A stretch of DNA of 21,344 nucleotides, taken from positions 1 through 21,344 of the IMG/VR virus record IMGVR_UViG_3300006735_000321; one strand, 5' to 3'. This document shows positions 6,009 through 19,575 of the stretch, piece after piece. The stretch is from a virus. The translations under genes were made by a program, and so were the position numbers. The notes beneath the pieces were generated by a model. That model saw only the letters and a program-made list of their open reading frames with translations. It ran no database searches and was not told the DNA's origin. Numbering within the stretch: position 1 is the first letter of the stretch; every line of letters begins with the position of its first letter.

Positions 6009-6925
6009 GTAAGGTAGACCGAACCAAACAAAAAGTTGTCCGAGGTGGAGGCACCATAATACAACATAACTTCATGCACTTGATACAACAGATAGCGCAT
6101 GCAACGAAAACATTCACTGGTAGCGACGGTAATGTATATCCCGACACCTCATACCGACAGTGGACCGATGATGCTGGCATAAAGCGCTCAGTCAAATACA
6201 AAAAGCATGAGATGTGGGGTATGGAATATCTCAATAAGTTTTTAGATAAATCACAGAATCACTACGAAATAGACCGAAAAATCAAAATGCTGACGCACCC
6301 CGATATAGATGAGTTGCTAAGACTCACACATGGTAATCAACCAGTGACGCTGGCAACTACGGTGTATCATGCTTACAAGGACGACCATGTGAAACTGTAT
6401 CAGCACCCCGACGGGCCACATATCCTTGGGAACGGAACGCAGAGTAAATACCCCGCCTACCAACAGTGGCTTAGTTCTTGGAAAAATAGACTGGTTTTGA
6501 TGCCTTCCGTAGCAAAGGAGTTTAAGAAGTGGCTGGGCGAGAACAAGACTCGTTTAGAATTGATAAAGGCCCAAGCAACGCTCAACAAGGGGCGAGAAGA
6601 TTACAAGCGAGTAGAAATGCGGTTGCGTAACGCCAAGCAAAATGTCGCCAACGCTGAGGTAAGCCTCGCCAATTACGAAAAAGCGTATGATACAAAGGTG
6701 GCCGAGTGGGATGCGGAGATGGAGTGGTTCAAGGCCGCACCTAAACACATCAGGTCACAGGTTACTCGACTTGACATTAACATAGTCAGCATACGAAGAA
6801 AGCAAAGCCCGCAAATGGAACTCAAGTTCCGACAGGACGCTTTGAAGCGCAACCAAGCAGATGTTGATAATCACTCGAAGATGCTGGAGACCCTTAAGGC
6901 TCTTTTCGGAGGTGAGGAGGAGTGA
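6005..6925 (+). CDS. Hypothetical 306-aa protein with C-terminal coiled coil
   Basis: ATGA overlap at the start with GGAGGTGAAAGC upstream (strong Shine-Dalgarno). Residues 1-180 form a mixed globular part with an early FMHLIQQIAHATKTF helix and many His/Tyr/Trp. Residues 185-300 are mostly charged helix (RLELIKAQATLNKGREDYKR, NAKQNVANAEVSLANYEKA, KRNQADVDNHSKMLETLKAL), a long coiled coil that may fold back on itself. It overlaps the next gene by GTGA. I recognise no family; a structural or scaffold-like role is possible. Confidence 0.65.
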   Translation: MSKVDRTKQKVVRGGGTIIQHNFMHLIQQIAHATKTFTGSDGNVYPDTSYRQWTDDAGIKRSVKYKKHEMWGMEYLNKFLDKSQNHYEIDRKIKMLTHPDIDELLRLTHGNQPVTLATTVYHAYKDDHVKLYQHPDGPHILGNGTQSKYPAYQQWLSSWKNRLVLMPSVAKEFKKWLGENKTRLELIKAQATLNKGREDYKRVEMRLRNAKQNVANAEVSLANYEKAYDTKVAEWDAEMEWFKAAPKHIRSQVTRLDINIVSIRRKQSPQMELKFRQDALKRNQADVDNHSKMLETLKALFGGEEE

Positions 6926-7569
6926 ATATCTTCGCACTATCAACCGACCCTCAGATAGCGGCGCAAATGGTGTGCGACAAACACGCCAGTAAGATGTGCG
7001 TCGAGACTGCACAGATGATGGCATCAGCCCTGCTTCGCAACGGATTCGAGCCGGAGGATATGCCACTCACACAGAAGGGCACGCCTTACAAGGGTGGTTA
7101 CAAGCATCACCCATGCACAGTATGGGCTGGCGATAACTGGGCTAATTTTCTATGGCTCGCTCAACATGGGCTGGCACTATGTAGGGAGTTCAAGATGCGA
7201 TACGGCGACCAGCGGGTTGAACATGCTTGTCGTGAGCCTATACAGGTTATGCTCAACATGGCCGTAAACCGCCCAGACACAGGTATATACAAGCACCTGC
7301 GGGGCAGGGATGATGAGACATGGGTGAAGAAGACTCCCTTCGCTATGGCTATGCCCGACGAGTTCAAGCGTGATGATGGCAAAGAGGTGCTCGCATACCG
7401 AGAATACTACCGCTCAAAGGTGTTCAAGGATGGCTCCCGCCCTACATGGGCGAGGGGTCGTGATGCCCCGACTTGGTGGCGACGCCGCCAAGCACCGCTG
7501 GGTTGGATGAATGGTGCACACTACCCCACTTGGGGGCCATCAATCCGAGGGGTGGATTCGGATGAATAA
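6922..7569 (+). CDS. Conserved phage-type protein (MNIF...DP...CDKH..KM..E.AQM family)
   Basis: A 215-aa protein that matches a widespread but poorly characterised phage family. The hallmarks are MNIF at the start, DP at 9-10, CDKHASKM (18-25) with E28 and Q31, a central KHHPCTVWAGDNWANFLWL, ALCREFKMRYG, TPFAMAMPDEFK, and an EYYRSK near the C-terminus. The conserved His/Lys/Glu suggest an active site, and some relatives are annotated loosely as DNA repair glycosylase-like, which I would not adopt. GTG 6922 overlaps the previous stop, with GGAGGTGAGGAGG upstream. The family call is firm, the function is not. Confidence 0.75.
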   Translation: MNIFALSTDPQIAAQMVCDKHASKMCVETAQMMASALLRNGFEPEDMPLTQKGTPYKGGYKHHPCTVWAGDNWANFLWLAQHGLALCREFKMRYGDQRVEHACREPIQVMLNMAVNRPDTGIYKHLRGRDDETWVKKTPFAMAMPDEFKRDDGKEVLAYREYYRSKVFKDGSRPTWARGRDAPTWWRRRQAPLGWMNGAHYPTWGPSIRGVDSDE

Positions 7570-9646: not shown

Positions 9647-9774
9647 ACTACAACATGGGGTGGGCTTCGGCTCTCATCAATTCATCTTAGGATGAGTTGC
9701 CTCCGTTTAGTTGCTTGGTTTCTCCTGTTTGGTCGAAGCCGCCCCGCCACTGAGCAACAACGGAGATGAATAAT
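9647..9774 (+). promoter_or_regulatory. Structured, riboswitch-like leader that can bury its Shine-Dalgarno
   Basis: Helix P1 pairs 9657-9669 with 9734-9745 (12 bp, one bulged G, one G-U). Helix P3 pairs 9701-9719 with 9749-9765 (17 bp, two wobbles, a 2-nt bulge), and its 3' strand contains the Shine-Dalgarno CGGAG (9761-9765). P1 and P3 cross each other in pseudoknot order, and the 3-nt linker 9746-9748 makes full coexistence difficult, so they probably compete. GATGAG (9691-9696) can pair with either CTCATC (9673-9678) or TTCATC (9681-9686, TTAG loop). It matches no riboswitch class I know. Confidence 0.65.
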
Positions 9775-10065
9775 ATGAGTAACAATCCATACATTTTAGC
9801 GGATAGCGTAGCACGATTACTGGTGGCAAACCCCGAAGGCTTGTCATCATACGAGATATTTAATCACTTGGCGGATAGCGACATGAATAGTCGTTGGTTG
9901 CCAACACGCAACTCCATCGGCCCTAAGTTAAGGGCAATCGGTGGGCTTGAGAAGAGTGGTAAAAGCACAGCCTATACGACTGTAAGCACACGAAGCGTAG
10001 TCGTTTGGCGTTTGAACATACAGGACTATATCAAATGGAGAGGTAAAGATGTTATCAGTAATTGA
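9775..10065 (+). CDS. Winged-helix-like DNA-binding protein, 96 aa
   Basis: ATG 9775 lies 9 nt after GGAG; ATG 9766 touches that site and is unlikely. DSVARLLVANPEGLSSYEIFNHLADSD reads as helix-turn-helix (helix 1, then 'GLSSYEIFNHL' as helix 2), followed by a helix with RNSIGPKLRAIGGLEK as recognition helix and a beta wing (AYTTVSTRSVVVWRL). The family is a general winged helix; the similar layout at 13271, 13543 and 16066 suggests an expanded set. Its translation is probably controlled by the structured leader. It overlaps the next gene by 17 nt. Confidence 0.6.
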   Translation: MSNNPYILADSVARLLVANPEGLSSYEIFNHLADSDMNSRWLPTRNSIGPKLRAIGGLEKSGKSTAYTTVSTRSVVVWRLNIQDYIKWRGKDVISN

Positions 10066-10819
10066 TTTGAAAACAATTCACTACGAGCGCACATACCCTT
10101 ACACCCGTAGCCGACAAGGGCGACTGGTTCAAGAGCCATACTTCACAGTATGTGATGGTGGTGACACCTATCACTTGAGAGGTAAGACAGTAATGTGGTC
10201 TTTCCTTGATTCATTATATCCCGACAACCCTCTACCGAGAGGACCGGTCGAGGATGATTTATTTGCGCCGGAGATAAATACTCCTTCGATGTTACACTTG
10301 TTTAACGACTTTGCCGAAGAAGCGGCGGGGAGTAATAGGTATCTTGTTATCGAGCATGATAAGCATGAGGTTTCTTTTGTTCGCAATCTTGATGCCTTCT
10401 CTTTATCTACGGACATAGAGAAGGTTGGAGGTATGCTACAAAGTGCTGGATTCAGCATAGAGTATAGGCCGAGCGTCTATATTGACTCACGAGGCAGTCA
10501 CTTACGAGCCTCTTTGTTTTGTCGCATAGGCAAACACACACTGCGTGTCACCGACATAGGTAGTAAATACTATCTCAGTATCAGCATTCTCGACCCGACT
10601 GGCAAAAAATACTGCATCATGCCGCCGAACACGATAGCCAAGAAAAATGACAAAGATGTTATTGAAAAATTGCGTGACATACTCGATGTTGCTTCTATTG
10701 GTATCACTACCCAAGTAGCAAACCAATTAGGCGCAGTGCCGGAAGTAAATGAGTCACCTTACATGATGACTCGTGAATTAGATACATTACTGCACGATAG
10801 ATTGCGGAGGTGCATATAA
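10049..10819 (+). CDS. Hypothetical 256-aa protein
   Basis: ATG 10049 follows GGAGAGGT. It is an alpha/beta soluble protein: an N-terminal beta-rich part (YFTVCDGGDTYHLRGKTVMW), an acidic linker (PVEDDLFAPEINTPS), a helix-strand pair (LVIEHDKHEVSFVRNLDAF), then a beta-rich part ending SKYYLSISILD, and a helical C-terminus (DVIEKLRDILDVASIGITTQVANQLGAVPE). The last segment could be a small helix-turn-helix. No motif allows a function call. Followed by a T9 terminator. Confidence 0.65.
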   Translation: MLSVIDLKTIHYERTYPYTRSRQGRLVQEPYFTVCDGGDTYHLRGKTVMWSFLDSLYPDNPLPRGPVEDDLFAPEINTPSMLHLFNDFAEEAAGSNRYLVIEHDKHEVSFVRNLDAFSLSTDIEKVGGMLQSAGFSIEYRPSVYIDSRGSHLRASLFCRIGKHTLRVTDIGSKYYLSISILDPTGKKYCIMPPNTIAKKNDKDVIEKLRDILDVASIGITTQVANQLGAVPEVNESPYMMTRELDTLLHDRLRRCI

Positions 10820-10828
10820 GTATTTCGG

Positions 10829-11071
10829 AATTAAGTTGGTATAATTTTTTTTTGACAACGAAAATAAACCAACTCACTGCGCCTTGATTGCTCTAATTAA
10901 GTTATTTCGTTAAAGACATTTATCTTAATACAGGATATACTATACTATTACTATACTATACTATAACCTTTTTATTGAATATCTCTTATACGAATTAACT
11001 TAATACATGCGAATCGAGGAGCAGTGTAGCGGTTTAATTTCGTTTGTTGAATTGAAGTTACCAACTTAATT
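10829..11071. other. Candidate replication origin: symmetric inverted-repeat array around an AT-rich core
   Basis: ATTAAGTT occurs at 10830 (+), 10896 (+), 11004 (-) and 11070 (-); spacings are 66, 108 and 66 nt, so the array is base-exact symmetric about 10950. The outer pair matches over 13 bp (AATTAAGTTGGTA, 10829-10841 and 11059-11071), and the inner pair at 13 of 14 (10896-10909 and 10991-11004). Between them CACTGCGCC (10875-10883) faces GGAGCAGTG (11018-11026). Centred at 10950 is a CTATA tandem (10935-10966). Bases 10921-10980 have 12 G/C in 60. Inverted protein-binding repeats beside an unwinding element are typical of origins, and the helicase gene is close downstream. Confidence 0.65.
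10845..10853 (+). terminator. Poly-T terminator (T9)
   Basis: Nine T in a row start 26 nt after the stop of the gene at 10049. The run falls inside the left arm of the inverted-repeat array and has no counterpart in the right arm, so it probably serves termination rather than symmetry. Confidence 0.6.
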
Positions 11072-11108
11072 ACAGAACACTTAAGTAGTGACGAAGGATT
11101 GATGAAAA

Positions 11109-11948
11109 ATGATGATGACTAAACATAACACCATAGACATATACCAACGAACTGAATGGCCGGATGTTCTACAAGGAGTATTACTATACTCCGAGAATGA
11201 ATACGGTTGCGCTTCGCACATAGCCATGAACTCGTTTGTTGAAGACAACGAACCCGATGGTAGGATATTGACCCACCTAATTAACCAAATGGTATTCAAT
11301 CAAACGATGGACTTTGAAAAGGTAGGTTGGACTTACCACTTTTACAGCGGCTACATGATTATCAATATCAACAAGTGGCCGCAAACGCCTATCATGCCTC
11401 TACATGAAGCGCAGGCAACATGGATTCACTGCTACCCACCAGTGCGTGACCTACTTTCATTCCTCAAAGAAAAGTATGACAACCTATCACTGTTGGCGTA
11501 TGTGACATCAACCACTATGCACGATGCGCTCAATACTGATATTTTTGCAGTGCATCCTCCCGAACATTTGATGGCATACTCTCACACCAACGGAACTAAA
11601 ATTACAATGTTGCCTAAGCATAAGGCTGGCATCAAAGGCGATTTATTTTTCAGCCCACCCTCTTGGATGTTTCCCCACCTCGCAGTAAGCATGGGGTTTA
11701 CTCAAGCCATGAGTATATTCAGTGGGCATGACCCCGAATCGGGTGACATTGACGAGGTAGCGGCACTTACATTGTTCCGATGGCTCAACGGAGTTATGGG
11801 TAATCCGAAATCAAAGCACGCATACAATCGCTCTCTAAGGAAAACAAAGAAGGATGTAGAGGCCGCACATGATATGCGAAAAGACCTTGAGGAACTACTT
11901 GAGAATGCAAAGAATACTGATGAAGCACCGAATGTGCTATGGGGATGA
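11109..11948 (+). CDS. PAC2-like (proteasome assembly chaperone family) protein
   Basis: A 279-aa protein whose layout fits the PAC2 family of archaeal proteasome-assembly-chaperone-like proteins. WPDVLQGVLLYSENEYGCASHIAMNSFVED (17-46) corresponds to the opening strand, glycine turn and helix; a helix-strand unit is at 113-135; PSWMFPHLAVSMGFTQAMSIFSGHDPESGDIDEVAALTLFRWLNGVMG (184-231) corresponds to the family's 'G..L..A...G......L.E..G...D...A...L..L...G'; and a charged terminal helix (245-269) matches the family tail. The glycine turns are poorly kept, so it is a divergent member. ATG 11109 begins a run MMM, so ATG 11115 is equally possible. It lies between the origin candidate and the helicase. 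Alternative: an unrelated Rossmann-like fold. Confidence 0.5.
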   Translation: MMMTKHNTIDIYQRTEWPDVLQGVLLYSENEYGCASHIAMNSFVEDNEPDGRILTHLINQMVFNQTMDFEKVGWTYHFYSGYMIININKWPQTPIMPLHEAQATWIHCYPPVRDLLSFLKEKYDNLSLLAYVTSTTMHDALNTDIFAVHPPEHLMAYSHTNGTKITMLPKHKAGIKGDLFFSPPSWMFPHLAVSMGFTQAMSIFSGHDPESGDIDEVAALTLFRWLNGVMGNPKSKHAYNRSLRKTKKDVEAAHDMRKDLEELLENAKNTDEAPNVLWG

Positions 11949-11952
11949 TTGC

Positions 11953-13269
11953 ATGAATGTCTTTGATGCTATGGCTGAATATGTGAACCGTAATCACTAT
12001 GTTGATGTCGAAGACAAAGTTCCTGTATTCCTGTGCTCCATTGGCACTCACATATTCAACGGACTCAACAAGTGCGGCACATGTCCGTTCATACCTGTTG
12101 AGGGTGTCGAAGGATTCGAGATTGAATCTTGTATTCTACGACATGACAAAGACCCAATCTATACGCCTATGTCTCATGTCGCTGATACGAGACTTCACAT
12201 ACTGATGCTGGGTATGAAAGGGTCGGGTAAATCGGTGCTCATACAGTTGTTCCTAAGCCCAAAAACAGGGCTATTATCGAATGCGGCTAATGCTGAAATC
12301 GGCATGGGCTTTAGAACCGACATCGGACCGAACTCAATTACCGAAGCAGGTATGTTTGGTTCTGTTGATGAAGAGGGCAATATCATGGGGCGACCACTCG
12401 CTCGTGAATTATGTGGTGGGTTCCTCGGTTTCGAGGAGTTCTCCTCCATCACTGATGCTGGCAAAAAGGAGCACAGCACAGATATTAAGAATCAACTATT
12501 GACTTCTACCGATAACGGTCGGGTCAAGAAGGTTATGCGTGCTGGGTGGGTAGAATACATTACTCGATACACCTTATGGGCTGGCACTCAGCCTGCTCGA
12601 TTCGAGATGGAGTCCGGTCTTGACCGACGCTTCTTCATTATCGACATTGAGATGAACCCCGAAAAAGAACGCCTGTTTAAGATAGCGCAGGCCAAACAAG
12701 CGAGCATGACTCCAAGCGAGCGTGCTGAACTAATAGGCATGGCTGATAGACTACGCAACTTCTTTACCGACCGAGCACTCGATGTTATTATGAATCCACC
12801 CACAGGGCTACGCTTCGATGACGAGTTCAATGAGTGGTTGTTCCGACCCGAAGTGCGTAGCCACGAGGCCGACCTGTTTCGACGCTTGGCCCTCGGTTAC
12901 TCTATCATGTCGCCCGAATACAAAGGTGGCGGCATACTACACATCAAAATGACGGACCAACTACGAACTATACTTGACCGTTGCTTAGATATGCGACGAA
13001 CTGTGATGGACTCCGACCTGCGCCTCATCAAGACGGCGTTTTGGAACCAAGCCATGTCTCGCTCCAACCTCATTAAAGAGGTAGCACGAATGATTACTAA
13101 TGGCGATTATCAATCCGCTAAGCGGTGGATTGAGGACAACCTACATATACAGGCGTGGTATAATGAAGAAAGGCCGAAGGGCGGAGGTAGAGGGCGTAAG
13201 GGAGTGTCGTGTTATATCGGCTATCCTCAAGCATCCTACGAACCCGCTAAAGCGGAGAAGGTGAACTAA
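11953..13269 (+). CDS. MCM-like AAA+ replicative helicase
   Basis: This 438-aa protein carries an AAA+ core of MCM type: Walker A GMKGSGKS (87-94), a Walker B-like GGFLGFEEFSS (155-165), a pre-sensor hairpin (VKKVMRAGWVEYI, about 191-203), sensor 1 LWAGTQPARF (208-217) and an arginine-finger stretch SGLDRRFFII (221-230), matching MCM's AANP and SRFDL sites in order. The first acid of Walker B is Glu instead of Asp. The N-terminal part is only about 80 residues, with a CGTC pair (41-44), far shorter than the roughly 250-residue MCM N-domain. The C-terminus (370-438) looks like a winged helix ending in a basic GGGRGRKG segment. ATG 11953 is the first start after the previous stop. It should unwind DNA for viral replication. 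Confidence 0.75.
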   Translation: MNVFDAMAEYVNRNHYVDVEDKVPVFLCSIGTHIFNGLNKCGTCPFIPVEGVEGFEIESCILRHDKDPIYTPMSHVADTRLHILMLGMKGSGKSVLIQLFLSPKTGLLSNAANAEIGMGFRTDIGPNSITEAGMFGSVDEEGNIMGRPLARELCGGFLGFEEFSSITDAGKKEHSTDIKNQLLTSTDNGRVKKVMRAGWVEYITRYTLWAGTQPARFEMESGLDRRFFIIDIEMNPEKERLFKIAQAKQASMTPSERAELIGMADRLRNFFTDRALDVIMNPPTGLRFDDEFNEWLFRPEVRSHEADLFRRLALGYSIMSPEYKGGGILHIKMTDQLRTILDRCLDMRRTVMDSDLRLIKTAFWNQAMSRSNLIKEVARMITNGDYQSAKRWIEDNLHIQAWYNEERPKGGGRGRKGVSCYIGYPQASYEPAKAEKVN

Positions 13270-13270
13270 G

Positions 13271-13543
13271 ATGAAATACAATAAAAGATTTATTAAGCGA
13301 GCAATAGAATACATTAAGACAAACGGACCGGCTACTGCCGAAGAACTACATGACGCACTAAGGTTTACTAAAAAGGGTAGACCCGAAGTGCACCCTCGGA
13401 CAAAGCCACAGGTTCAACAGATACTTTGTCGAAGTAAATTGCTTAAATCACATTGGACTAAAGTTGCTCGTGCCGACAATAAGGAATATCCTCGATACAC
13501 CACTTATAAAGTGAGACAATACTCGGTGGCAGGTGATGAGTGA
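13271..13543 (+). CDS. Winged-helix DNA-binding protein, 90 aa
   Basis: FIKRAIEYIKTNGPATAEELHDALR (8-32) is a classic helix 1/helix 2 of a winged helix; HPRTKPQVQQILCRSKLLKS is the recognition helix and YPRYTTYKVRQYSV the wing. A start right after the helicase stop with AAGGTGA upstream suggests translation from the same message. The C-terminal 'TTYKVRQYSV' corresponds to 'YHYKVKLWSV' in the next gene, so the two look like diverged tandem duplicates. DNA target unknown. Confidence 0.7.
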   Translation: MKYNKRFIKRAIEYIKTNGPATAEELHDALRFTKKGRPEVHPRTKPQVQQILCRSKLLKSHWTKVARADNKEYPRYTTYKVRQYSVAGDE

Positions 13544-13812
13544 TGGGTAGATACACTCAATGGTGCGACCGAGCACGAGAACAGATACTACGACACGGCG
13601 AGATGTCATCTCGCACACTTATGTATAACATAGCACAGTCGGGGTTCAGCCAAAAGCGCAGTCCTACAAGTGTGCGCTCGGCATCCCAAGCCCTGCTACG
13701 AGACCACCGCTTTGCCTCACATGAACCCGATGTCGGGTCATACCAATTTGGTGAAGGTGAAGTAGCGAAAGGTTATCACTACAAAGTAAAATTATGGAGT
13801 GTGGTTCAATGA
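13543..13812 (+). CDS. Winged-helix DNA-binding protein, 89 aa
   Basis: ATG 13543 shares one base with the previous stop and follows AGGTGATG. YTQWCDRAREQILRHGEMSSRTLMYNIAQSG gives helix 1/helix 2, RSPTSVRSASQALLRDHRFAS the recognition helix and GYHYKVKLWSVV the closing strand. The length, order of parts and ending match the preceding gene, which argues for a tandem duplication. It overlaps the next gene as ATGA. Confidence 0.65.
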   Translation: MGRYTQWCDRAREQILRHGEMSSRTLMYNIAQSGFSQKRSPTSVRSASQALLRDHRFASHEPDVGSYQFGEGEVAKGYHYKVKLWSVVQ

Positions 13813-16065: not shown

Positions 16066-16473
16066 GTGTCGGCCAATAATAATAACAAGAGGGTGCGGAG
16101 AGCAATAGTAGAATTATTGCTTGAGCATGGACCTGCAACTCGTGAAGAAGTAGCGGAACTATTGCAGAATTACAAAGGTGTAAAGAATGTTCCTTCTCCT
16201 AATAGCCTCAGTGCTCTCATGTCTAAGAATCCGCAGGTTGTTATCGTGGGCAAACAAAAAGTCGAGATGACTCTTGGCATCAACACACATCATATGATGT
16301 TTGATATTGACCGAGTAGTAATCAAGACCAAAGATGATTTGATTTTGACTCGACCAATATCTGTTATGACTCCATCCGAGCGACGCAAAGCAATTCAGTG
16401 TAAGGATTGCGGTCGAACTCGAATCATGCCTAAAGGCTCTAATAAGTGTCTCGCATGTCATCGTAGAGAGTAA
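16066..16473 (+). CDS. Winged-helix protein with C-terminal zinc ribbon, 135 aa
   Basis: RRAIVELLLEHGPATREEVAELLQNY (11-36) is helix 1/helix 2 of a winged helix, SPNSLSALMSKNPQVVIVGKQKVEMTL (44-70) the recognition helix and wing. The C-terminus has CKDC (112-115) and CLAC (128-131), a four-cysteine zinc ribbon. The combination is typical of archaeal transcription factors. GTG 16066 is preferred because a TATA box lies 26 nt upstream and no Shine-Dalgarno is present. It lies directly before the RFC promoter. Confidence 0.65.
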   Translation: MSANNNNKRVRRAIVELLLEHGPATREEVAELLQNYKGVKNVPSPNSLSALMSKNPQVVIVGKQKVEMTLGINTHHMMFDIDRVVIKTKDDLILTRPISVMTPSERRKAIQCKDCGRTRIMPKGSNKCLACHRRE

Positions 16474-16505: not shown

Positions 16506-17408
16506 ATGAGACAAGTATGGGCTACCAAGCACCGACCCTCTACTCTCGATGAGTTCGTGGGCCAAGAACACATTGTTAATGAGTTCTCAAATGTTATTCA
16601 AGACCTTAAATCAATGCAACATTATATTTTTCATTCTCCCGAAGCGGGAACAGGTAAGACTTCTCTCGCTCACATATTGGCTAATCAACTTGGCTACACC
16701 ATTCACATGTATAATGCGTCGTCTAAGCGACAGCGTGGTATCGAGTTCATTGAAGATGAACTCGCACCTATGACTCGGCTCGGTCAATGGGAAACGATTT
16801 ACTTTTTAGATGAAGCCGACCAACTTACTGATGCGGCGCAGTCGGCACTCAAGGGTGTTATAGAAGGCGCTCAAGGCTACTTCATCCTTACCTGCAACGA
16901 CTTGACTAAGTTATCACCGTGGCTGAAATCTCGGTGTCAAGTAAGAACCTTTGAACCCATAGGTGATAGCGAGATGTTTCTCCGACTACATCAAGTAGAT
17001 GGCTACGAAGGCTTCTTTACAAACAACGATGACCTTGACAAAATCATAGATGCCAACAAAGGCGACCTACGAAACGCAATCAATACCCTTCAAGCATACC
17101 ACACTATGCCGGAGGAGACTCGACAACAATTCTTACTCTCAATATCCGAACCCGAAGTTGATGCGGCTAAAATCCTCACACTTTGCATTAAGGAAAAGCA
17201 GGTAGAAGAAGCCGTGAAGTGCATGGGCACTCCGGTCAACCTGCGAAAGACAATAGACGCCGTGTTTAACTACGGCATTCACTCCCCCGCTAAACCCGAA
17301 AGCAAATTGCTCTTGGTGGATGCCGCTACACAGGCCCAAAGGGATTTGTTAAGTGGCGTCGAGTCTCACTATGTTATGTGGGATTTTTGCCGGAGATTGG
17401 CTGAATAG
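16506..17408 (+). CDS. rfcS: Replication factor C small subunit (clamp loader ATPase)
   Basis: 300 aa with all RFC small-subunit boxes. WATKHRPSTLDEFVGQEHI (5-23) is box II-like, Walker A PEAGTGKT (45-52), Walker B IYFLDEAD (98-105), sensor 1 with N131 (ILTCND), and SRC (142-144) with the arginine finger that acts on the neighbouring subunit. KGDLRNAINTLQ (about 199-211) is sensor 2. It loads the sliding clamp onto primed DNA. It is somewhat short compared with the usual 315-330 aa, with a small C-terminal collar. A leaderless start under a class II promoter. No large subunit is seen, so it may use the host's or the protein at 14810. Confidence 0.9.
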   Translation: MRQVWATKHRPSTLDEFVGQEHIVNEFSNVIQDLKSMQHYIFHSPEAGTGKTSLAHILANQLGYTIHMYNASSKRQRGIEFIEDELAPMTRLGQWETIYFLDEADQLTDAAQSALKGVIEGAQGYFILTCNDLTKLSPWLKSRCQVRTFEPIGDSEMFLRLHQVDGYEGFFTNNDDLDKIIDANKGDLRNAINTLQAYHTMPEETRQQFLLSISEPEVDAAKILTLCIKEKQVEEAVKCMGTPVNLRKTIDAVFNYGIHSPAKPESKLLLVDAATQAQRDLLSGVESHYVMWDFCRRLAE

Positions 17409-17455: not shown

Positions 17456-18646
17456 ATGGTAGATATTGAACAGATGATAGAAAGAATTAGCAAAAATGTA
17501 AATTGCACGACCGACGCACTAAGTGCTCGGATGAATACGGTGCTCGACGCAAATCGAGCGGCATGGATGGATGCTGGAAAGACAGAAGAGGAGTGCACCA
17601 TCAACGCACTTCGTATTGCTGGCCGACAAGTTAAGAGCGAAGGTGAACGCCTCAAGCGTTCCGGCGCAACTCTCTTTGAAGGAATGTTTATTAGCGCACC
17701 ACGATACAAAGACTGGGCCGACTTCGCTTACAAGAAAGCGGCTAAGAGTATTGGTGACTCCGCTATTGCGGATGCTATGGTCGAAGATGGACTGGCGACA
17801 GTCTACGAAGACAACAACGACGGCACATACACTAAAAAATACAACGGCTCTTTGGCTCGTGGCGAAGCATTCGACCCCGATGTCACTACAACAGACATCT
17901 CCGAATTGCCAAAGAACACATATGACGCTGGCAACGGACTACACTTTCATTTGATTTGGGATAAGGCCAGCCCTACATTCCCTTCGGGCGATAAGAACTT
18001 CAAGTATGGCAACCCTCGCCCACTAAGCGAAAAGGACCGCAACTGTATGTTCTTGGGTCGCAAACAAGGCGACACCGACATGCAAATCTACTCGATGCGC
18101 TTTACTGGTGCGTTGGCCGAAGTAGACCATCCGACATTCGTAGCAGGCACTATCGCTATGCGACCTGCACGCAACGGCAACACTGCCTACGCTAAGGCCG
18201 GTGTCTCGACATTTGCTGTTGACGACTCTCTACAATCCGTCTTCTCCGACGCCCCCGATGCCATGAATTATGATGGTATCAAGCGACTCGAAGGTGGACT
18301 ACAAGACATCGAAGCATATGTTGGTGGACTTAGCGACAAAGAGAAGTGGGATGCTCTTGTTTCTGTTGTTGTTGAAGTGGTTCACATTGACCCACGAGAC
18401 AACGGTGGCTACATTATGACTGTTGGCGACCTTGACATTATGAGTATGGCTGGCACCACAGACATTTATGTTCCTACATCTCAAGAGTCTCTTGTTGACT
18501 TCTCCGTAGGTTCGACTCTTATGGTTGTAGGCCAACCATACATGAGCCGTGATGATGAAGCACGCCTTGTCACTACTGGCTGGTGGTGCGCCGAGTCTAT
18601 TGGCTCCGGCGAATCCACCACTACTGATGCTGAGGGGTGGGATTGA
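17456..18646 (+). CDS. Probable ssDNA-binding protein (RPA/SSB-like)
   Basis: A 396-aa protein. The N-terminal 60 residues are helical (IEQMIERISKNVNCTTDALSARM), as in archaeal RPA-like proteins. A long beta-rich central region has YSMRFTGALAEV and later VVVEVVHIDPRDNGGYIMTVGDLD, then TDIYVPTSQESLVDFSVGSTLMVVGQPYM, in the order of an OB fold. The acidic C-terminal tail ends in DAEGWD, reminiscent of SSB tails that dock replication partners. It sits between the clamp loader and the Sak4-like ATPase, the usual place of an SSB. The family call is inferred from fold pattern and context. Its stop shares a base with the next start. Confidence 0.5.
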   Translation: MVDIEQMIERISKNVNCTTDALSARMNTVLDANRAAWMDAGKTEEECTINALRIAGRQVKSEGERLKRSGATLFEGMFISAPRYKDWADFAYKKAAKSIGDSAIADAMVEDGLATVYEDNNDGTYTKKYNGSLARGEAFDPDVTTTDISELPKNTYDAGNGLHFHLIWDKASPTFPSGDKNFKYGNPRPLSEKDRNCMFLGRKQGDTDMQIYSMRFTGALAEVDHPTFVAGTIAMRPARNGNTAYAKAGVSTFAVDDSLQSVFSDAPDAMNYDGIKRLEGGLQDIEAYVGGLSDKEKWDALVSVVVEVVHIDPRDNGGYIMTVGDLDIMSMAGTTDIYVPTSQESLVDFSVGSTLMVVGQPYMSRDDEARLVTTGWWCAESIGSGESTTTDAEGWD

Positions 18647-19575
18647 TGGCTTGGGCACAGTCTAAGACTGAGGCGGCACCTGCGAAAGCGGGTGCTACCT
18701 ATGGGGCCGACTACTACCGTGAGTTGTTCGACAAGAAGCGTGAGAACCACGCTCCGATTCGTATGGCACTGGTTGGCAAAGAGAACACAGCAAAGACTGG
18801 CCTATCTCTCGACCTCGCACTCAAGCACACGGACAAGCAAATCATTGTCCTCGATTGCGACAACTCGGCACAGAACACAGTTGATTACCTACTCTCTACC
18901 AAAGTAGAGGGTGCTGAAAGAATCCGTGTCATCCCTATGATTGATGAGATGGATGATGCTATGTGGAATGACGACAACACTACCGATTGGCTCGCAGTAG
19001 TCAAGAAGTTGGAGTGGTTCACTGCATACTTGGGTGAGAATCACTCCGATATTGGCGCAGTAGTTATGGATGGCGGCTCTACTTTTCTCAAGTGGTGCGA
19101 GTTCGTTATGACTGAACGCCTACTTGAGCGTGGCGTCATCAAAGACGAGAGCGACAACTTCAATCAGAAGGAATGGCGTGAGCGCAACCGTGTGTTTAAG
19201 GGTGTCCTTAACCGCTTGACTGCTCTACCAATCCCCTACATCTTCTTCACCTTTCACTTGAAGGACAAGAAGCAGTTCATGGATATTGGTAACGGCACTA
19301 AAGCCATGATGAAGATTGGCGAGATTGTTGATTGGGTTGATGGCACACAGCGTTTCGTAAGCCAACAGATTCTACTACGGCGATACACCAAGAAAGGCGA
19401 CAAGACCGCCGGTGTTGAGGCTGACAAAAAGTTGGGTGAGGATGACTTCGTTATTCGTGCCACTGTCAACGAGATGAAAGGCCGCAATATGGAACACTTG
19501 GGTAAGCAATATGACTTGATGAGTGTTGTCAATGGCAAAGTGGCTTGGAATGGATTACCTTTCGGGTGGGAATAA
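18646..19575 (+). CDS. Sak4/RecA-like recombination ATPase with an unusual P-loop
   Basis: 309 aa with a single RecA-type core: IRMALVGKENTAKTGLSLDLA (38-58) as Walker A, IIVLDCDNSA (66-75) as second strand, IGAVVMDGGSTFLKW (136-150) as Walker B with D142, and PYIFFTFHLKDKKQF as the next strand with a sensor-like His. This is the layout of phage Sak4-type ATPases that work with SSB in annealing and recombination. The P-loop reads GKENTAKT (44-51), with Ala in place of the usual Gly before the Lys. ATG 18646 shares a base with the previous stop (TGATG). Expected partners are the upstream ssDNA-binding protein and the clamp downstream. Confidence 0.7.
   Translation: MAWAQSKTEAAPAKAGATYGADYYRELFDKKRENHAPIRMALVGKENTAKTGLSLDLALKHTDKQIIVLDCDNSAQNTVDYLLSTKVEGAERIRVIPMIDEMDDAMWNDDNTTDWLAVVKKLEWFTAYLGENHSDIGAVVMDGGSTFLKWCEFVMTERLLERGVIKDESDNFNQKEWRERNRVFKGVLNRLTALPIPYIFFTFHLKDKKQFMDIGNGTKAMMKIGEIVDWVDGTQRFVSQQILLRRYTKKGDKTAGVEADKKLGEDDFVIRATVNEMKGRNMEHLGKQYDLMSVVNGKVAWNGLPFGWE

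Follow-up and report, generated by a model that had tools for sequence, protein, structure and literature searches.

In Sulfolobus oriC1 (ORB3-DUE-ORB2), inverted ORBs flank an AT-rich unwinding element, and at archaeal origins MCM has been proposed to be recruited from both sides (excerpted text of PMC12141716 and PMC4010727). Herpes simplex virus carries three redundant origins, and in oriS and oriL inverted binding boxes surround an AT-rich spacer (excerpted text of PMC12543377). Replication genes carried by magroviruses (Magrovirales) and other tailed viruses of Poseidoniales include those for a family B polymerase, a clamp loader and an MCM-type helicase (PMC10768690). For magroviruses, Poseidoniales viruses and archaeal tailed viruses we found no origin of the form reported here described in the open-licence literature, and the terms "replication origin" and "origin of replication" occur zero times in the main texts of PMC10160649 and PMC8651126. 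Here we describe a conserved inverted repeat that we read, with a probability of roughly 0.57, as an origin from which a tailed virus replicates in both directions, with or without a role in transcription control; the host is probably a marine archaeon.

The window, the stretch of DNA analysed here, is the entire 21,344-base virus record and is probably a fragment. The original prediction described four copies of ATTAAGTT mirrored to the base about position 10950 with spacings of 66/108/66, and these coordinates check out. The sites (ATTAAGTT/AACTTAAT) lie at 10830(+), 10896(+), 10997–11004(−) and 11063–11070(−) and are absent from the rest of the 21,344 bases; because 10830 + 11070 and 10896 + 11004 both equal 21900, the spacings are exact. 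The four copies of ATTAAGTT in the window compare with a mean of 0.74 in shuffled windows. We also reproduced the identity of the outer pair of sites over 13 bp and of the inner pair at 13 of 14 positions, the placement of CACTGCGCC opposite GGAGCAGTG in the two arms, and the count of 12 G/C at 10921–10980. Alignment of the window with its own reverse complement gave a match of 69.9% over 272 columns at 10817–11083 (E 1e-20), and this whole imperfect palindrome of 267 bases (the dyad), which is kept at the same place in relatives, is the candidate origin. With arms of 100–135 bases, the search for ungapped palindromes puts the best centre of the window at 10950.5; with 60-base arms that centre falls outside the best six. 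None of 1,000 dinucleotide shuffles of 10800–11100 reached the observed best symmetry of 0.524 (0.392 ± 0.018 in shuffles). As claimed, the region is gene-free, sitting between an ORF end at 10819 and an ORF start at 11109. It was also said to lie upstream of the helicase gene (11869–13269), and it does, but the ORF at 11109–11948 intervenes. The upstream neighbour (10049–10819, +) encodes 256 aa, and a same-direction ORF ends at the dyad in relatives; the downstream ORF (11109–11948, +) encodes 279 aa, and in relatives an ORF of this type usually separates the dyad from the AAA+ gene. Neither the 256-aa nor the 279-aa ORF has a match in Pfam or PHROG.

Relatives were found via the AAA+ protein encoded at 11869–13269, which first gave 29 loci; an 18-sequence alignment of this protein yielded the best 80 of 182 loci, among which many of the first 29 recur. 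Self-alignment at E ≤ 1e-3 detected a mirrored stretch upstream of the AAA+ gene in the window and in 15 of the first 29 loci. A half-site profile was grown from the two arms of the window by iterative nhmmer, with the 80 loci and the window as input; four loci with fewer than 500 upstream bases were dropped and the remainder thinned to 64 non-redundant loci by shared 15-mers. At least one half is present in 63 of these 64 loci and both halves, facing each other, in 58. At E ≤ 1e-3 the profile has no match outside the 2.3 kb upstream of the AAA+ gene in 450,967 bases. Conservation in related genomes had been set as a test of the original prediction, and the dyad is found at the same place in nearly all testable loci. 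It is still recognisable in relatives whose flanking 256-aa and 279-aa proteins are down to 30–39% identity, and in two loci (L076 and L116) it stands immediately before the AAA+ gene with no intervening ORF.

In six loci the profile does not find the complete pair of facing halves (L078, L086, L098, L115, L117 and L131). L086 begins 1135 bases before the helicase match and the dyad lies further out in many relatives, which leaves no room for a dyad at the usual distance. The missing half is weakly present in L078, L098 and L115, and a sequence-only half-site model recovered both halves in the records of L098 and L115. A clear right half is absent from the helicase site of L131 and L117, and the L131 record has a complete dyad located elsewhere. 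In L106 (790–2949) the halves are about 2 kb apart with several ORFs between them, a split that may be a real insertion or an assembly error. One of these ORFs resembles by eye the pyrimidine dimer DNA glycosylase encoded at 6922–7569 of the window (PF03013, E 2e-8), homologues of which occur at varying places in many relatives.

The 81-position profile matches the window at 10841–10922 (+, left half-site) and 10978–11060 (−, right half-site). From the outside towards the centre, the boxes of each half-site are AATTnTTTT (outer), TAAACGnnnnACTGCgnnCC (core) and AATTnTTTTATTTCTTCAAAGG (inner). The ATTAAGTT sites are real but only a part of the conserved element, whose core is TAAACGnnnnACTGC plus AATTnTTTTATTTC and not ATTAAGTT alone. 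In the window the left outer AT box (AATTAAGTTGGTA, 10829–10841, +), of a type found across the family, is mirrored at 13 of 13 positions by the right one (11059–11071, −). The left core box (TAAACCAACTCACTGCGCC, family consensus TAAACGnnnnACTGCgnnCC) is at 10865–10883 (+) and the right core box at 11018–11036 (−), and this box also occurs as stand-alone repeats in relatives. The inner boxes lie at 10895–10915 (+; AATTAAGTTATTTCGTTAAAG, consensus AATTnTTTTATTTCTTCAAAG) and 10985–11005 (−). The best outer match is 63–66 bp from the inner box in 78 of 117 halves, near the 66-base spacing of the original prediction, with the automatic search choosing other A/T runs for the window's own halves. 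An ACTGC element is inverted to GCAGT in some left halves of relatives. By the strict core-box consensus (≤5 mismatches) the window holds 4 sites, one of them in the dyad, against 2.4 in shuffles, and its own core boxes do not exceed chance by this measure.

Between the half-sites lies an AT-rich centre (10921–10980, 12 G/C in 60 bases) with a CTATA tandem at 10935–10966, a candidate DNA unwinding element. The length of the centre varies among loci, with modes at 21–29, 41–42 and 54–59 bp. The CTATA centre had been singled out from its composition, and it proves to be an extreme low-stability region in both the window and its relatives. The ten least stable 40-mers of the window all start at 10921–10943, and in every one of 56 loci the dyad centre falls within the least stable 5%. 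In all six long one-dyad records (G001, G002, G003, G011, G033 and G034, with no second dyad among the matches listed) no 150-bp stretch is less stable than the dyad. Among the multi-dyad records (n = 9), 17 of 20 dyads fall within the top 12 least stable stretches, the exceptions being the helicase-side dyads of G050 and G054 and one other dyad of G047.

Left halves resemble one another across loci as closely (0.584) as right halves do (0.585), indicating equal constraint, and similarity is slightly higher between the two halves of one locus (0.618) than between orthologous halves of different viruses. The original prediction saw in the arms an old inverted duplication; the data fit such an event, yet the symmetry has been maintained across the family.

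The gene at 11869–13269 (+; start may be 11953) encodes an AAA+ protein that the original prediction called an MCM-like helicase. Fold comparison supports this assignment and MCM sequence profiles do not match. A first model built from 18 sequences had no fold match at E ≤ 0.001. In a model built from 55 sequences (mean pLDDT 67, residues 119–223 below 50), Foldseek returned only two matches below E 0.001, both to MCM-containing structures (best 6e-5, TM ~0.3), followed by magnesium chelatase at 0.03. VIA-align listed 50 entries, all of them structures of MCM, CMG or the replisome (Z 12.5–14.7; best Z 14.7, rmsd 4.3 over 254 residues), with the chains taken as MCM subunits from their labels and the lack of ORC-type folds from the list being no evidence against them. 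The medium-quality model therefore supports an MCM-type motor fold for the protein next to the dyad; the aligned part is the predicted motor, and an MCM N-terminal tier is not evident in the model. We found no convincing match for the protein among Pfam, PHROG and PDB sequence profiles and none in the phage collection. The MCM profile PF00493 matched 0 of 18 records at E ≤ 0.01 and was not among the families matched by the 55 AAA+ proteins at E ≤ 1. The modest quality of the model and the Foldseek TM of ~0.3 make this MCM assignment a point that we count against an origin.

A search for Orc1/Cdc6 (TIGR02928) in 18 viral records, possibly fragments, gave one weak partial match and none over the cut-off. 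No orc1/cdc6 gene was found adjoining the dyad in these 18 records with this profile, and a host-supplied initiator is possible. In many relatives, small ORFs of one family separate the dyad from the 279-aa-type gene, and two ORFs of the window are clearly and two weakly related to this family (E-values from a search among the window's ORFs). The first, at 13271–13543 (+; E 6e-8), encodes a small putative DNA-binding protein, a candidate box binder. A second paralogue lies at 16066–16473 (+; E 2e-7) and has a weak HTH_20 match below the cut-off. Possible third and fourth paralogues are at 13540–13812 (+; E 0.005) and 9766–10065 (+; E 0.047, under the inclusion threshold). By eye, the proteins of this family look winged-helix-like. 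The window also encodes an RFC-type clamp-loader subunit (16506–17408, +; PF00004 E 1e-11, phrog_168 E 3e-39), and at 18637–19575 an AAA_24 / Sak4-like recombination-type ATPase is suggested by weak matches.

Among the relatives, 20 of 29 records encode a family B polymerase, and terminase and portal are encoded as well. A haloarchaeal tailed virus (22.8% identity) heads the phage records listed for the polymerase of one of these records (G001). An archaeal host is likely on the strength of the relatives' polymerase, terminase and portal genes together with this haloarchaeal-virus match. In genome contigs, 164 stretches fit a pattern for relatives of the AAA+ protein and none was confirmed. 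Record G001 also encodes a 955-aa protein with amidoligase and glutamine amidotransferase domains (L035:5992–8856).

Reading the dyad as a replication origin is favoured because of the mirrored boxes, the extreme centre, the equal constraint on both halves, the helicase neighbour and the near-universal presence of the dyad; conservation and the low-stability centre support the origin first proposed, and skew and the extra promoter-side copies do not. We also count in its favour the MCM-type fold of the model, the box spacing shared by most halves, the dyads of L076 and L116 that directly adjoin the AAA+ gene, the family B polymerase of relatives and the likeness of dyad copies within a genome. 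At such an origin, sequence-specific proteins would occupy the three boxes of each half, outer, core and inner, in mirrored order; candidates for this role are the AAA+ protein itself and the small paralogues whose genes lie close by. The bound proteins would destabilise the AT-rich centre, two rings of the MCM-fold AAA+ motor would be placed head to head, one per half, and two forks would start from the dyad. Cumulative GC skew had been put forward as an origin marker, and in 5 records the helicase-side dyad does not coincide with a minimum. By and large the skew tracks the direction of the genes, and G003 has a small local maximum at its dyad. Strand-matched third-codon skew differed as expected in 10 of 15 records (p = 0.095). 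We count against an origin this silence of the skew, the split halves of L106, the loci L131 and L117, and the further dyads at promoters and core-box arrays described below.

The main alternative, which we hold to be a real if lesser possibility, is that the dyad serves transcription control only. A viral regulator would bind the boxes, which lie ahead of the replication operon and in many relatives between divergent portal and phosphoesterase–terminase operons as well, and the mirror symmetry would reflect divergent promoters or DNA looping. TATA-like words and start codons come after the right half, as such an element would have it, and the halves often border promoter-like sequence. In the window a TATA-like box (CTTAAGTA, 11080–11087, +), a putative promoter element, precedes the next ORF. 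TATA-like words at offsets 9–22 number 63 in 60 right-half flanks and 21 in 59 left-half flanks, and are thus threefold commoner on the right; in window-like relatives a TATA-like ATATAA also occurs outside the left half, across the stop codon of the upstream gene. Of 57 right edges at the helicase site, 55 have an outward ORF, and a gene starts 35–75 bp outside the half at 45 of 57 right edges, which suits a promoter element. At the left edge the longest ORF points towards the dyad in all 57 loci with enough sequence, and therefore no gene starts outward on that side; yet the left half is as constrained as the right, which favours a symmetric function over a simple promoter. A promoter also leaves unexplained why the centre is the least stable stretch in 6 of 6 one-dyad records, and would seem to leave unexplained a mirrored second half some 200 bp upstream.

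Further copies of the dyad bear on the same alternative. We scanned 50 whole records with a sequence-only half-site model trained on helicase-side halves. The model matches in 50 of 50, partly by construction because it was built from helicase-side halves, many of them from the same viruses, and the further dyads are the out-of-sample part of the scan. At least 17 of the 50 records carry at least two complete dyads, and at least 3 of these carry a third; in G062 the helicase site shows a left half alone, and the one complete dyad is found elsewhere. Sixteen of the 20 further dyads that we fetched are at a divergent portal/phosphoesterase junction and 4 are elsewhere. Both portal and phosphoesterase were recognised by comparison with named relatives at 14 of the 16 junctions, the Pfam matches of the two proteins being below curated cut-offs, and at several the terminase is next along. 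Gene starts lie 35–75 bp outside the half at 22 of 31 edges of the portal junction, and this placement, like the junctions themselves, speaks for a regulatory element. Copies of the dyad are more alike within a genome (0.649) than between genomes (0.606), and a genome's own second copy ranks in the top 3 of 15 for 11 of 15 genomes, as expected if one factor binds all copies. The 50 records, 20 contexts and 15 genomes were used without thinning for redundancy; G014/G020 and G047/G048, for example, look like the same virus. One further dyad, at L046:4796–5003 (record G024), coincides with the minimum of cumulative GC skew.

A strict inverted core-box pattern, used for two gene-blind scans of the viral collection, gave 29 distinct loci, at least 4 of them in contigs already in the AAA+-based set. 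A profile-supported dyad is present in 21 of the 29, of which 8 have relatives of the AAA+, 279-aa or 256-aa proteins, 12 have relatives of portal, phosphoesterase or terminase, and 1 has neither. Of the 8 loci without a supported dyad, three hold core-box arrays (L195, L201 and L221) and the others are L197, L198, L207, L209 and L213. Two of these, in short records, hold inverted core-box pairs with identical spacing (L207:3316–3440 and L209:6769–6893), and neither record matches the AAA+ protein or the half-site profile. L195, from a record (G064) that has the AAA+ gene too, contains 16 copies of TAAACGnnnnACTG in 9.8 kb, and the counts in L205, L221, L194 and L201 are 14, 12, 7 and 6. With ≤5 mismatches of 18 allowed, L195 has 36 core boxes and its shuffles have 0.6. 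The dense array of the 24-bp core box TAAACGnnnnACTGCgnnCCTATT at L195:2535–4005 stands beside a terminase gene, similar arrays are seen in L205, L221, L194 and L201, and some of the weaker boxes in such arrays fall inside an ORF. As repeats of this kind indicate, the core box is a recognition site in its own right in the array-bearing relatives. Since the L195 array stops shortly before an ORF, the arrays support transcription control.

Origins between divergent viral promoters are familiar, and the dyad might be an origin inside a promoter region at which a single factor ties replication to transcription, both early and late; the further dyads would then serve as additional origins or as regulatory copies. 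Such an arrangement would combine the junction dyads, the TATA-like flanks, the unstable centre, the likeness of copies and the gene starts. It needs more assumptions, nothing separates it from the simpler readings, and we regard it as rather doubtful, giving it the smaller share of the probability assigned to an origin above.

A packaging site (pac/cos-type) or another terminase-linked site is improbable: many second dyads and core-box arrays are near the large terminase gene, but the near-universal copy is at the helicase, and in the one-dyad record G001 the dyad is ~20 kb from the portal gene. Least credible is a structured RNA or long hairpin transcript, as might be read from the long inverted repeat and a single weak hit in Rfam (E 0.003; 25 bits, where the gathering score is 110; attributed to the AT-rich inverted repeat), since half-to-half mismatches in 56 loci are as often of G-U type (256) as of A-C type (252) and no RNA pairing is evident.

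If the dyad is an origin, we tentatively suggest a virus-family-specific initiation without Orc1/Cdc6. The small paralogues would read the mirrored three-part half-sites and load a minimal MCM-fold motor lacking recognisable MCM sequence, and the 24-bp core box would have been redeployed as late-promoter dyads and terminase-side arrays. Replication and late transcription, and perhaps packaging too, would then share one recognition code. With a precise and conserved cis element of defined box architecture, with candidate binders and with a divergent motor of MCM type, initiation in an uncultured virus group becomes testable in vitro, and the dyad offers a compact model in which two MCM rings may be placed head to head without Orc1/Cdc6.

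Compared with known systems, the dyad resembles Sulfolobus oriC1, as far as the excerpted text goes and in architecture only, in having inverted sites around an AT-rich centre. It differs in that no Orc1/Cdc6 match over the cut-off was found in 18 viral records, and in that its half-sites are longer and three-part and belong to a site family of the virus group. The likeness to herpes simplex oriS and oriL, as these are excerpted, lies in boxes around an AT spacer and in redundant copies, which occur in at least 17 of 50 records and not in the window; the viruses are unrelated, and each half of the dyad holds three box types over ~100 bp. The many repeats of the 24-bp core box in some relatives recall plasmid iteron arrays, whereas these core-box arrays stand beside the terminase gene and the window has a single core box per half. 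In gene content the group may be compared with Magrovirales and other Poseidoniales viruses, tailed viruses that have a polymerase of family B, a clamp loader and a helicase of MCM type.
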